Below, one piece after another: positions 33,062 through 36,798 of a stretch of DNA of 47,254 nt (position 1 is the first letter of the stretch; each line of letters opens with the position of its first letter). The position numbers and the translations under genes were made by a program. The notes beneath the pieces are model-generated. The model searched no databases and was not told the origin of the DNA. It was given only the letters and a program-made list of their open reading frames with translations. Source of the DNA: Colwellia sp. GTDB taxonomy: Bacteria; Pseudomonadota; Gammaproteobacteria; Enterobacterales; Alteromonadaceae. Location: positions 17,367-64,620 of the forward strand of contig JAPYOP010000012.1 in NCBI GenBank assembly GCA_029938115.1. The letters run 5' to 3'.

Positions 33062-33291
33062 TAATTATGCCTAGAATATAAGTTAACTCAATTACTTGAG
33101 GATTAATCACTAAATAACATTTAAGTTAAATTTAACAAATATAATGACTTTTTTCCACAGTTAAAACTCAAATTCAACCGCAATTCGAAGCACGTGCCCA
33201 TGCTTTTACTATCTATCTCTGTAATGAAATCAACTTCTCAGTTTTTATCTTTGTGTTCCTTATCAATTTCAAATAATAGCCCCCAGTATAC

Positions 33292-33562
33292 GCCATAATC
33301 TAGGCCTTTCACTTTACTTTCAATTGAGTCTCACGCGGTTAGGATAATAACAGGCAATTTAGAGTTCCTATCGCGTAATTGTTTCAATAATTCAAGACCA
33401 TCTATATCCGTTAATCCTAAATTAAAAATAACCATATCTTGATCAGGCATTCAATGTGATTTTTCCTTCATTAACATGATTAACTACAAAACCTCCTGTA
33501 CGCAACGTTTGCTGTGAAGCTGTGGCGAGTGGTATGTCATTTTCAACTAAAAGTATGCGCAT
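33292..33562 (-). pseudogene. Response regulator (OmpR/QseB type) remnant
   Basis: An ATG at 33562, two bases after the apbE stop, starts M-R-I-L-L-V-E-N-D-I-P-L, a receiver-domain beginning. After about 38 codons the frame ends in TGA. One base shift restores D-Q-D-M-V-I-F-N-L-G-L, then D-I-D-G-L-E-L-L-K-Q-L-R and L-P-V-I-I-L-T-A, followed by another stop and K-V-K-G-L-D-Y-G. The phospho-accepting Asp is replaced by Asn (N-L-G-L for D-L-G-L). No DNA-binding domain remains. Downstream (about 33160-33290) E-I-D-S then G-T-C-F-E-L-R-L may be the last residues of a sensor kinase. The rest of the 503-bp gap (33062-33564) shows nothing recognisable. Confidence 0.8.
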
Positions 33563-33564
33563 TT

Positions 33565-34539
33565 TTATCTCCGTACCCAAAACTTAATCTCTTGCTCTGT
33601 TAAAAATTGCTCGGCATCAAGACCTTGTAATAAAGCCAATGTTGCTAGAATTCCTGCTTGAATACATTGTGGAGCCACAACGGTAATAGACCGAGGAGCA
33701 TTATCAATTGGCCAGCCCGATTTAGCATTTAAAATATGTCCATATCGTTTGCCGTTTTTCATTAAAAATCGTCTAGCATCACCACTGGTAGCCAATGCTC
33801 CTTGTTTTAACGAAATGATCATGTCAGCAGGTTTACTATGATTAACTGTGCTGTCAACATCTGGGTGCTCAATAGCGACTTGCCAATTTTTGTTATTCAA
33901 ACGCGAACAAGTGACGGCAAGATCTCCGCCCAAATTAACTAATACTGGCTTATTAGTTAATTGTTTAGCTAAAATAATAGCGCGGTCAACCGCGTACTCT
34001 TTACCTATACCACCAAAATCAATTTCCATATTCTTAGCTAAGGTTATTTGTTGTTGATCAAAGTTAATTTTACGCCACCCTACAAACTTAAGCGCTGCTG
34101 ATACTTTGACTTTAGAGGGTAAATTATCACTACCATCAAAAAGCCAAGCCTTTCTTAATACGCCGGAGCTAATATCAAATGAACCATCACTTAATTGGTA
34201 ACACTGCTCAGCAAAATTTAAGAGCAAGTAGGTTTCTTGATCTATCGGAACAGACTGCCCTGCTCTTGTGTTAATAAGGCTACAGATACTATCTTTATCG
34301 TAACGGCTGTATTTGTCTTCAATACGCCAAACCTCATCCGCAATTATATTGCCTAACTTTATCGCTAGCTGCTTATCCGATGATTGGATGATTACTTCAC
34401 AAGGACTAGCCATAGCATTAAAACTAATGCCATAACCATCATCATTTTTGTTTAGCGTTATAGTTCTACTATTTTTTTTCAAATAGATCTCATCAAAAAT
34501 GTAAAATGTAAAATGTAAGGGTTGAACAATAAAACGCAT
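33565..34539 (-). CDS. ApbE-like FAD:protein FMN transferase
   Basis: ApbE moves FMN from FAD onto a Thr or Ser of a target protein, using Mg. Family blocks are visible: A-M-A-S-P-C-E-V, E-D-K-Y-S-R-Y-D, F-D-I-S-S-G-V, I-D-F-G-G-I-G-K-E-Y-A-V-D, V-N-L-G-G-D-L, then A-T-S-G-D-A-R-R-F and Y-G-H-I-L-N-A-K-S-G-W. The metal and FAD region thus looks intact. It is unusual in that the N-terminus (MRFIVQPLHFTFYIFDEI) is not a convincing signal peptide or lipobox, while most bacterial ApbE proteins are exported; a TTG at about residue 20 is another possible start. It lies 40 bp after the DUF3570 gene and is followed by the regulator remnant. Confidence 0.88.
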   Translation of the reverse strand: MRFIVQPLHFTFYIFDEIYLKKNSRTITLNKNDDGYGISFNAMASPCEVIIQSSDKQLAIKLGNIIADEVWRIEDKYSRYDKDSICSLINTRAGQSVPIDQETYLLLNFAEQCYQLSDGSFDISSGVLRKAWLFDGSDNLPSKVKVSAALKFVGWRKINFDQQQITLAKNMEIDFGGIGKEYAVDRAIILAKQLTNKPVLVNLGGDLAVTCSRLNNKNWQVAIEHPDVDSTVNHSKPADMIISLKQGALATSGDARRFLMKNGKRYGHILNAKSGWPIDNAPRSITVVAPQCIQAGILATLALLQGLDAEQFLTEQEIKFWVRR

Positions 34540-34579
34540 ACTTTATTAAAAACAACAAGCTGTTCAAAGTAAATAACTA

Positions 34580-35881
34580 TTAGAATGAATAGGTTACCTG
34601 AACAATAACAGCATCAATCGTAGGATAAAGCTCCACATCATTTAACACACCTGGCTCTTCAAACCCTGCATCCGTTGGCGTTTGGTGATAATACTCCAAT
34701 CTAAATGCTAACTCATTGCCATCATTAACTAACATGCCATATTTTAAACCAACGGTAAAAGCCGCCATTTCACCTATACGATAATCAGCACTTACAAAAG
34801 TAGGTAAAGCATTTTCTTCAAGTAAAAATGGGCGATAAAAGTCAGCGGCACTTTGTTGATAAAATCTAAAATGAGGCTGTAAGTAACTTTCTTTACCTAA
34901 TGAATCTCCCATTGGTATTCTAAAACGCGAGTCAATGGTATGCGACTCTATTTCCCAATCATCCCACATGTAACGATAAGAGACGTCAAGCACTACGTTG
35001 TCAAAATGATACATGCTCTGTGCGTATAGACTTTGTTTAACTCTTGAATCAGGACGACTTTCATAAATATTATCCTGTGTAACGCCATTAATATCAACAA
35101 TACTCACAATTTTAAATGGGTCATTTAAATAACCATCTACGGTTGAATAAGAATAATTAAACTGCATTAACATTCGTCTATTAATAACTTGCGTGAATCC
35201 TAATAAAATATCAGCCGTAGTTTTATCGTCTTCACTTCCTAGTCGAGTTTTAGCAAAATCATCATCCCAAGTAGGTGCATTTCTATCGCCAATAAGCATA
35301 GATATTAACGGGTTTGGAATACCGCCTTCAGGTGTAAACGTATCTTGAAAATAGCTAAAGCCAAGTAAAAATGTTGAATTTTTTCTATCAAAATCTACTG
35401 CAAGGTTGCCATTTAATCCCAATGATAAGTAATCATATTCTTTAGATATATGAACACCACTACTAGCCGTTAAGTTTGAGGACACTGGCTGAGTCCACTG
35501 TCCATTTAACTGCACTCTAGTATCATGAAAGGTATCATCAAGTGGCGTTTCACCTGGCTCGACTTGATATTGTCCATTACCTGAAGGACGTGTAAAAGTT
35601 TGTACTGTAGGCTGTGCTACAGCGCCATTAGCTGAAGCGCCTGTTAACGCATCAATGGTTAGTTTTAAGTTGAGAACGTCTTCATCTTCAAAGGTTTTTT
35701 TAGCATTAAAAATAGCCTCGCCTGCGCTTACTCTATCTACTTCACTGTAAAACAAAAAAGCGGCATCAAATTCCCAACTATCTTTCTCTGTTGGTTCTGC
35801 CTGAGCTAAGTTATGACAACCTAACAAAGCAGTTGTCGCTAACGTTAGTGCTGCTTTGATGTTTAATTTTTCTTTTTTCAT
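34580..35881 (-). CDS. DUF3570 outer-membrane beta-barrel protein
   Basis: A 433-residue protein with a signal peptide (cleavage near A-Q-A-E, about residue 28). It is rich in alternating strand patterns and ends V-I-V-Q-V-T-Y-S-F with a terminal Phe, as outer-membrane barrels do. It matches DUF3570 as I know it: the N-terminal region has W-E-F-D-A-A-F-L-F-Y-S-E, D-R-V and L-K-L-T-I-D-A-L-T-G-A-S-A-N-G. The D77-A-L-T-G-A-S83 stretch resembles the D-x-x-S/T-G-A-T/S site modified by ApbE, and apbE is the next gene. The function is undescribed as far as I know; see findings. Confidence 0.88.
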   Translation of the reverse strand: MKKEKLNIKAALTLATTALLGCHNLAQAEPTEKDSWEFDAAFLFYSEVDRVSAGEAIFNAKKTFEDEDVLNLKLTIDALTGASANGAVAQPTVQTFTRPSGNGQYQVEPGETPLDDTFHDTRVQLNGQWTQPVSSNLTASSGVHISKEYDYLSLGLNGNLAVDFDRKNSTFLLGFSYFQDTFTPEGGIPNPLISMLIGDRNAPTWDDDFAKTRLGSEDDKTTADILLGFTQVINRRMLMQFNYSYSTVDGYLNDPFKIVSIVDINGVTQDNIYESRPDSRVKQSLYAQSMYHFDNVVLDVSYRYMWDDWEIESHTIDSRFRIPMGDSLGKESYLQPHFRFYQQSAADFYRPFLLEENALPTFVSADYRIGEMAAFTVGLKYGMLVNDGNELAFRLEYYHQTPTDAGFEEPGVLNDVELYPTIDAVIVQVTYSF

Positions 35882-35924
35882 TCTATTGTTACCAAATGTA
35901 TTATCAATATTAGGATTCAGCTTA

Positions 35925-36020
35925 AAATCGTATGGTTCAATTACAAGGAAAACGCACGGAGTTGACGATAGTCAATGAGTACTTTTGAAGCAGGAATTGG
36001 GCTATACAGTAACAAGATGA
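35925..36020. repeat. Possible dispersed intergenic element
   Basis: The spacer between the DUF4266 and DUF3570 genes holds an unusually GC-rich, non-coding stretch around aaaacgcacggag, with a perfect inverted repeat ttgac-gata-gtcaa at 35962-35975 and a downstream cttttgaagcagg. It looks like intergenic repeat families of marine gammaproteobacteria from memory. Only one copy is present in this window, so repetition is not shown. Confidence 0.35.
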
Positions 36021-36029
36021 ATTATAATG

Positions 36030-36254
36030 CTAGTTACAGCCACACCCTCCACCGCCAAAACTCTTCCCGCCACTTGATGCTTCTTTACTAAAGTAAATAT
36101 GATCATCAAGGGCAGAATCTACCGGGGAAGCATTCAATGACATTTCATCTTTAGCGAGTAAGTCCCGCTCCCAAGGCTCTACACCAAGGCTAGCGCAGCC
36201 TGTTGCACTGACGATTAAAGGAACTAATAATGTGAGTTTAAATTTTGTTTTCAT
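36030..36254 (-). CDS. DUF4266 small lipoprotein with Gly/Cys tail
   Basis: A 74-residue protein. The start is set at ATG 36254 because GAGG lies 6 bases before it and the signal peptide begins there; a TTG eight codons upstream was rejected. The signal peptide ends V-S-A-T-G-C, a lipobox, then A-S-L-G-V-E-P-W-E-R-D-L-L-A, the DUF4266 core. The tail G-G-G-G-C-G-C-N is Gly-rich with two Cys. The gene lies between the thioredoxin-like and DUF3570 genes on the same strand. The vicinal Cys may be a substrate of that thioredoxin or bind metal (inference). Confidence 0.87.
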   Translation of the reverse strand: MKTKFKLTLLVPLIVSATGCASLGVEPWERDLLAKDEMSLNASPVDSALDDHIYFSKEASSGGKSFGGGGCGCN

Positions 36255-36324
36255 AAAAACCTCAGTAACTTTTAACAAGTTAGATTTGTTTATAAAGTGA
36301 TTTTATTTCTGAATTGTTTCTTAA

Positions 36325-36798
36325 CTATTTATTAACTAACAGCGCTTCAATTTCTTGATTGTATTGTGGAATTTTTTTGGTAAAAAAACCGGTATGGCGA
36401 GATTTTATTTTACCATCACGGCCAATAAGCATACTGCTTGGCATCCCTTGAATTTTAAAGTGCTTCGCTATTTTTCCTTTCGGATCGTAAATGACTTCAA
36501 ATGATGCTGGATTAGCAAGTAAAAATTTTGCTGCTAATTGCTTGTCAGCATCTAAATTGACACTAATAACAGTAAAGCCTTTATCTTTATATTTACTTTG
36601 AATGTCATTCATCCAAGGGAAAGAGCGTTTACATGGCACACACCAAGAAGCCCAAAAATCAAGATAAACAACTTTACCTTTATGCTTCGCTAAAGATTGC
36701 TCTAAAGCTTGCCTGCTAGATACTGAGTCAAAAGCCTGAGAATAAGCGCTAATAAACAAGGTAATAATTAAGGTGAATAATAATGTAAATTTAGACAT
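36325..36798 (-). CDS. TlpA/thioredoxin-like disulfide oxidoreductase, exported
   Basis: A signal peptide (M-S-K-F-T-L-L-F-T-L-I-I-T-L ... S-Q-A-F) is followed by a thioredoxin fold of the TlpA/ResA class. The redox motif is F-W-A-S-W-C-V-P-C-K, and the cis-Pro is in I-Q-G-M-P-S-S. The start is ATG at 36798 rather than a TTG three codons upstream. It acts in the periplasm, probably as a reductase given its kinship with TlpA. First gene of the set with DUF4266, DUF3570 and ApbE, 70 bp upstream of DUF4266. Confidence 0.9.
   Translation of the reverse strand: MSKFTLLFTLIITLFISAYSQAFDSVSSRQALEQSLAKHKGKVVYLDFWASWCVPCKRSFPWMNDIQSKYKDKGFTVISVNLDADKQLAAKFLLANPASFEVIYDPKGKIAKHFKIQGMPSSMLIGRDGKIKSRHTGFFTKKIPQYNQEIEALLVNK

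Follow-up and report, generated by a model that had tools for sequence, protein, structure and literature searches.

A dedicated ApbE transferase without a signal peptide may flavinylate an outer-membrane DUF3570 barrel before export in Colwellia and its relatives

We analysed a 47,254-nucleotide stretch of DNA from Colwellia sp. (assembly GCA_029938115.1, contig JAPYOP010000012.1, positions 17,367 to 64,620; henceforth referred to as the window) and focused on an operon transcribed from its minus strand in the order TlpA-like thioredoxin, DUF4266 lipoprotein, DUF3570 protein and ApbE, the transferase that attaches flavin mononucleotide (FMN) from flavin adenine dinucleotide (FAD) to proteins. 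FMN is a cofactor derived from vitamin B2. The operon almost certainly belongs to the DUF3570/DUF4266/thioredoxin/ApbE flavinylation system published by Meheust et al. in 2021 (PMC8238504). The flavinylation system is known; what is added here concerns the place at which the flavin is put on and its final position. From comparisons of the motif and of the transferase, together with a model of the barrel, we infer the compartment of flavinylation, the final position of the FMN, the route of the electrons and their acceptor. On balance we favour a picture in which a dedicated clade of signal-less ApbEs flavinylates the DUF3570 precursor and the flavin ends up on the surface side, where it may form a haem-free reductase for metal uptake, with a sister branch mostly using exported ApbEs and a D-x-x-S-S-A-S site. 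Slightly more probable, taken jointly, is the combination of membership in the published system, cytosolic attachment of FMN to Ser83 before export, FMN at the extracellular end and a thiol-to-flavin route.

That DUF3570 proteins are flavinylated is known from experiment elsewhere: the main text of Meheust et al. reports that the protein of Chlorobium luteolum is flavinylated by its ApbE at the serines of two [S/T]GA[S/T] motifs (PMC8238504). An earlier note on this DNA, made from the sequence alone, had rightly taken DUF3570 for the ApbE target and had wrongly held that neither DUF had an experimental function, since flavinylation of DUF3570 was published. Its central idea is thus correct and already in print, including the link between thioredoxin, DUF4266 and flavin, the same main text proposing a hybrid thiol/flavin electron path for this cluster. 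The published clusters comprise 285 with DsbD (227 of them with DUF3570, 183 with a PF13899 thioredoxin and 221 with DUF4266) and 316 that combine ApbE, DUF3570, a thioredoxin-like protein and DUF4266 without DsbD; two motifs per protein are reported for 228 proteins, and are not stated there as a condition. In the literature on DUF3570 and DUF4266 we recognised nothing on this cluster beyond that paper, and no mention of any DUF family was found in the available text of the 2025 ApbE review (PMC12052999). The window operon resembles the published DsbD-type system in the clustering of the same four families, in the C-x-C tail of DUF4266 and in the [S/T]GA[S/T] motif of DUF3570. It differs in having one site rather than two, in its Redoxin/TlpA-type thioredoxin (PF13899 matches only at an expectation value (E) of 0.11, the best match being the one in Table 1) and in DsbD, which is encoded on another contig of the genome and not in the operon cluster.

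The relatives considered here are the best 80 of 487 confirmed in one scan (loci L155-L234), and those with names are mostly Colwellia, Paraglaciecola and Thalassotalea. DUF4266 lies just upstream of DUF3570 in all 80, ApbE lies within 2.5 kb downstream in 73, and DUF3570 carries D-x-L-[ST]-G-[AST]-S in all 80. The earlier note had named loss of the motif in ApbE-linked families beforehand as the observation that would refute its proposal; the motif is instead kept throughout, the 73 loci with a nearby ApbE included. The same note's description of four co-directional genes is borne out at 33565-36798, as is its remark that an FMN-bind domain is missing nearby: there is no FMN_bind gene near the operon, and the four FMN_bind places of the genome all lie on contigs other than that of the window. 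In a phylum sample of 398 genomes DUF3570 was present in 29 and DUF4266, above the cut-off, in the same 29, with one further DUF4266 match below the threshold.

Within the motif the FMN acceptor of the window protein is likely Ser83 and not Thr80; Ser83, the last motif residue, is invariant in an alignment that combines the window with 71 of the 80 loci (72 rows). The site is single: a second [ST]GA[ST] within 60 residues occurs in none of the 72 rows, window included. Among the 12 operon-type proteins of a mixed alignment, a second [ST][GST]AS before the place of window residue 123 was present in eight and absent from four, the window among them. The window residues at the place of the second site read Q-T-F-T-R-P-S-G, so that its branch appears, by this alignment, to have lost the second site or never to have had one. 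Three DUF3570 motifs, 10-12 residues apart and within about 30 residues, occur in the type with DsbD in the operon (L038-L041 and L048), these being paralogous operons that also encode a protein with weak beta-propeller matches. As a separate observation, the DUF3570 of L136 (7266-10004) carries, as a fusion, a second part rich in Met and His, and a family scan of this C-terminal part gave nothing above the cut-off.

We next consider the compartment in which the operon ApbE acts. The set comprised 111 unique proteins from 137 loci, each encoded within 5.5 kb of DUF3570 and none from a type D locus (see below). A first hydrophobicity rule, applied to the first 40 residues (9 of 105 proteins reached 1.8), was dropped, as the domain's first strand was included in what it scored. 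With an anchored rule, applicable to 107 of the 111 (the four dropped proteins start inside the domain), a signal-like N-terminus was found in only two (L082 and L083), both of them start-ambiguous, with a start upstream of that of near relatives; the operon ApbEs have a median of 19 residues ahead of the first domain motif. Among control ApbEs from 14 genomes, 15 of 17 could be anchored and all 15 were signal-like, the remaining two being signal-like by eye. In a midpoint-rooted FastTree phylogeny of 52 ApbEs, all 31 operon ApbEs sampled from the 111 formed one clade (support 0.944) with no other ApbE inside. The window's own genome holds two ApbEs, the operon one and a signal-bearing, lipoprotein-type one on another contig (C58) together with one FMN_bind gene. 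In published co-expression the DUF3570 protein was mainly in the pellet and was nevertheless flavinylated, as the main text describes (PMC8238504). Since a tag of seven residues can suffice for ApbE according to the available text of PMC12052999, an unfolded chain would be a fit substrate. Taken together, the signal-less ApbEs with a clade of their own, the flavinylated DUF3570 in the pellet and the sufficiency of a short tag make cytosolic flavinylation before export the simplest reading, and by these N-termini the operon ApbE probably acts in the cytosol. Passage of the FMN side chain through Sec would be possible because the channel may open to 2.4 nm, as stated in the accessible part of PMC6028853. 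There is a likeness to the Klebsiella cytosolic ApbE, also without a signal peptide, which flavinylates a cytosolic fumarate reductase (available text of PMC12052999); in contrast to that target, which stays in the cytosol, the window target is an exported outer-membrane protein. Our literature search found nothing on cytosolic ApbE flavinylation of an outer-membrane protein, and the main text of Meheust et al. was not found to contain words for barrel, porin, cytoplasm or cytosolic ApbE (PMC8238504).

Several points weigh against this reading. The signal calls come from the hydrophobicity rule and not from SignalP, and two divergent proteins among 33 ApbE matches (G100:C5 and G394:C20) were left out of the signal comparison. 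The two Hymenobacter plasmids that make up our Bacteroidota sampling encode ApbEs with a signal, judged by eye, near DUF4266 and DUF3570, and exported ApbEs are therefore used in some lineages. According to the main text of PMC8238504, the Chlorobium constructs were made in a way similar to that used for signal-peptide-truncated proteins. Five of the 80 relatives (L192, L198, L199, L202 and L211) keep the motif, yet ApbE was not found within 2.5 kb (in two further loci without a nearby ApbE, L169 and L171, the contig ends), and a short TlpA-like gene upstream was recovered in 62 of the 80 by open reading frame (ORF) calling. The Hymenobacter ApbEs, the signal-bearing ApbE of the window's own genome and the signals of 13 of 15 type D ApbEs would all suit periplasmic flavinylation, either by that second ApbE or by an operon ApbE exported by an unknown route, the operon ApbE then serving another cytosolic target. 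We regard this alternative as unlikely: DUF3570 has the operon ApbE no more than 2.5 kb away in 73 of the 80 loci, the operon ApbEs form their own clade in the sample with 105 of 107 lacking a signal-like N-terminus, and the seven-residue tag (available text of PMC12052999) fits an unfolded chain. Independently of compartment, the position of Asp or Asn in the C-terminal ApbE pattern H-I-[LI]-[DN] is Asn in 84 of the 111 operon ApbEs (13 unmatched by this simple pattern), and of a further 30 ApbEs, Asp and Asn each occur in 14; this may be a change at a metal ligand.

A sister branch of 26 loci (type D) contains TlpA, DUF4266 and DUF3570, with ApbE not adjacent; the DUF4266 ORF was found in 25 of the 26, and a protein with at least two CXXCH motifs lies within 4 kb in 24. 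One such two-haem-type protein was scanned (L045) and carries an HZS_alpha domain. We had considered type D proteins as flavin-free natural controls, given that [ST]GA[ST] is missing from them, and rejected this, as the alignment shows the site to be kept and ApbE is often on the same contig. Of 25 aligned proteins, 24 show the site as D-[ST]-x-A-S and 18 contain S-S-A-S (mostly as D-x-x-S-S-A-S), and L044, outside that alignment, has D-T-I-S-S-A-S. In 11 of 16 genomes searched, the type D ApbE shares the contig at a distance of 6-23 kb; it is on another contig in three and far away in two, and three additional genomes have it 11-18 kb away. Because this branch keeps the site and has ApbE on the contig, haem does not simply replace flavin. 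Of 15 assigned type D ApbEs, four of which lie on a different stretch, 13 were signal-like by the rule and that of L300 by eye; that of L290 was not. The ApbE of L149 likewise has no clear signal. The ApbE of L288, initially labelled nqr, falls among type D ApbEs in the tree, and the intact DUF3570 of a Hymenobacter plasmid reads D-Y-Y-S-S-A-S. Judged from these sequences, ApbE compartment and motif change together in most cases and not in all: L150, L152 and L153 are exceptions, having [ST]GAS with signal-bearing ApbEs.

The outer-membrane location of DUF3570 put forward in the earlier note is supported by an AlphaFold2 model built with 72 sequences (predicted local distance difference test (pLDDT) 88.7, predicted template modelling score (pTM) 0.83). 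The model is porin-like, with 16 strands of at least 10 residues and a few shorter ones, and has, by prediction, the antiparallel 16-strand porin fold with periplasmic N and C ends. All 50 matches listed by Foldseek and all 50 listed by VIA-align were outer-membrane barrels or mitochondrial kin, including BamA, FhaC, OccK porins and OmpF/OmpC; several were near end-to-end with the model, the OmpF match spanning residues 31-433. The general porins OmpF/OmpC and OccK/OpdK therefore share the barrel fold in near end-to-end alignment; the window protein, unlike them, has a predicted covalent flavin site and a lipoprotein partner, and a sequence search of the PDB with DUF3570 showed no relation to these porins (no match up to E 1). 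The C-terminal strand of such barrels ends in the periplasm. Counting strands back from it makes the end of strand 3, where Ser83 lies, extracellular, and the conserved loop 85-113, which contains Q-T-F-T-R-P-S-G, starts just after it; five loops of at least 19 residues come out as extracellular and seven turns of at most six residues as periplasmic. This placement comes from strand counting with the shorter strands omitted and not from coordinates, which tells against it, and we lean only somewhat towards the FMN lying at the outer face of the modelled barrel.

DUF4266 is the candidate electron donor to the flavin. Its C-terminus reads GGGCGCN in 79 of the 80 relatives and AGGCGCN in one, and the window protein has the same C-x-C in CGCN. 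Across 38 sequences 27 columns are invariant, and AlphaFold run on DUF4266 alone gave no confident fold (pLDDT 59.2, residues 57-74 under 50); DUF4266 may fold on its barrel partner. It is plausible, as had been suggested, that the thioredoxin has the DUF4266 cysteine pair as its partner and that electrons pass across the outer membrane. The full proposal runs as follows. The signal-less operon ApbE would attach FMN from cytosolic FAD to Ser83 of unfolded, newly made DUF3570, which would be exported by Sec with its FMN and inserted in the outer membrane by the Bam pathway as a 16-strand barrel, so that the FMN would come to lie where strand 3 ends on the extracellular side and loop 85-113 begins. 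DsbD, encoded elsewhere in the genome, would reduce the TlpA-like protein, which would reduce the C-x-C tail of the DUF4266 lipoprotein; this tail would reduce the FMN on the barrel, and the flavin would hand electrons to an acceptor outside the cell, perhaps a metal. We give this electron order, from DsbD through the TlpA-like protein, DUF4266 and FMN to an outside acceptor, an even chance of being right. Chain 6r2q_B of the Mtr outer-membrane electron conduit, which we take to be the barrel MtrB, was ranked sixth by Foldseek (E 6.1e-6). MtrB is a larger barrel that sheathes multihaem cytochromes, in contrast to the flavin and the thiol-bearing lipoprotein of the window set. Protein thiols are common clients of TlpA/DsbD pathways, and DUF4266 accompanies DUF3570 in every DUF3570 genome of the 398 sampled, as would be expected if the TlpA-like protein and DUF4266 matured or protected envelope proteins and the flavin were an electron sink or sensor. 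The DUF3570 barrel, however, has no conserved cysteine (none after residue 35 in 69 of 72 aligned proteins), type D proteins, too, keep the flavin site (24 of the 25 aligned), and we consider this thiol-repair role improbable. In three loci (L035-L037) DUF4266 has a long N-terminal extension (202-206 amino acids (aa)) and lies behind genes that look Tad pilus-like by eye.

If electrons leave the barrel, metal uptake could supply the name of the acceptor, and such a role is compatible with the cytosolic flavinylation and surface flavin favoured above. Genes for a Cupredoxin_1 protein, an EfeU-like membrane protein and a protein of 240 aa share an identical distribution, all three being present in 35 of the 80 relatives within about 9 kb of DUF3570 (e.g. 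L155, L194, L204 and L219); this count over both strands and both sides supersedes an initial one of 18 of 71 loci limited to downstream, same-strand genes, and it made the metal role slightly more likely. The trio lies downstream on the same strand in 20 loci, downstream on the opposite strand in 10, upstream on the same strand in four and upstream on the opposite strand in one, and with four arrangements the association goes beyond what inherited gene order would give. Response regulator and kinase models each matched in 36 loci; both also lie downstream in the 18 loci of the initial same-strand count, which have 7.5 kb or more of downstream sequence, and in L218 their nearest NCBIfam models are PmrA/QseB and QseC. 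The constant company of the trio despite its varied order hints, from gene content, at a shared task with metal. In this role a flavin-bearing surface reductase would deliver reduced iron or handle copper together with the cupredoxin and EfeU-like genes, and weak matches to the EfeU model (E 1e-6, 0.0016 and 0.0047 in three members scanned, far below the cut-off) point the same way, as do 25 published DUF3570 clusters with VIT1 (main text of PMC8238504). Pointing the other way, the trio did not turn up in the sequence retrieved for 45 of the 80 loci, the window's copy is decayed, R-E-x-x-E was present in none of the 35 EfeU-like proteins, and a Pfam scan of six of them up to E 10 gave no FTR1 match and no clear family. 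R-E-x-x-E is the FTR1 signature. We hold the metal-helper role as tentative, somewhat short of an even chance. In the window, 33150-33562 holds residues 1-105 of the response regulator in pieces with stops, together with a portion of residues 111-160 and the final 12 residues of the 240-aa protein, likewise in pieces, the gene for which, in relatives such as L072, ends the block four genes further on. By these remnants the segment is a deletion scar, and the window operon lost the trio block at this place.

The features of the window operon are given in Table 1. The N-terminal signal of the TlpA-like protein is hydrophobic and was judged by eye. On one side the operon is flanked by genes for a solute-binding protein and DUF3083, and on the other by a divergent asparagine synthase B gene. 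The spacing between DUF4266 and DUF3570 is 148 bases in the window; their reading frames overlap in 62 of the 80 loci (e.g. L196:8989-9004), by 10 bases in 45, and this overlap suggests coupled translation there.

Table 1. Positions of the operon genes, the flavinylation motif and the downstream remnant in the window
Feature	Positions	Strand	Details
TlpA/ResA-like periplasmic thioredoxin	36325..36798	-	W-C-V-P-C; Redoxin PF08534, E 4.9e-22 (36325-36786)
DUF4266 lipoprotein, 74 aa	36030..36254	-	PF14086, E 3.2e-22; lipobox Cys20; C-terminal G-G-G-G-C-G-C-N
DUF3570, predicted outer-membrane barrel with N-terminal signal peptide	34580..35881	-	PF12094, E 1.9e-154
Flavinylation motif D77-A-L-T-G-A-S83 in DUF3570	35633..35653	-	residues 77-83
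ApbE FAD:protein FMN transferase	33565..34539	-	PF02424, E 5.4e-65; signal peptide not recognisable
Decayed remnant downstream of ApbE	33150..33562	-	response regulator and 240-aa protein pieces

The system is published but little studied. Cytosolic action of ApbE would mean that a chain with a large, covalently bound flavin has to go through the Sec channel; this would push back the limits known for inserting cofactors ahead of export, and it would become clear why these barrels have a transferase of their own despite a signal-bearing ApbE in the genome. A porin-like barrel made of a single chain and carrying a flavin on its outer face would, if true, amount to haem-free delivery of electrons to the cell surface.

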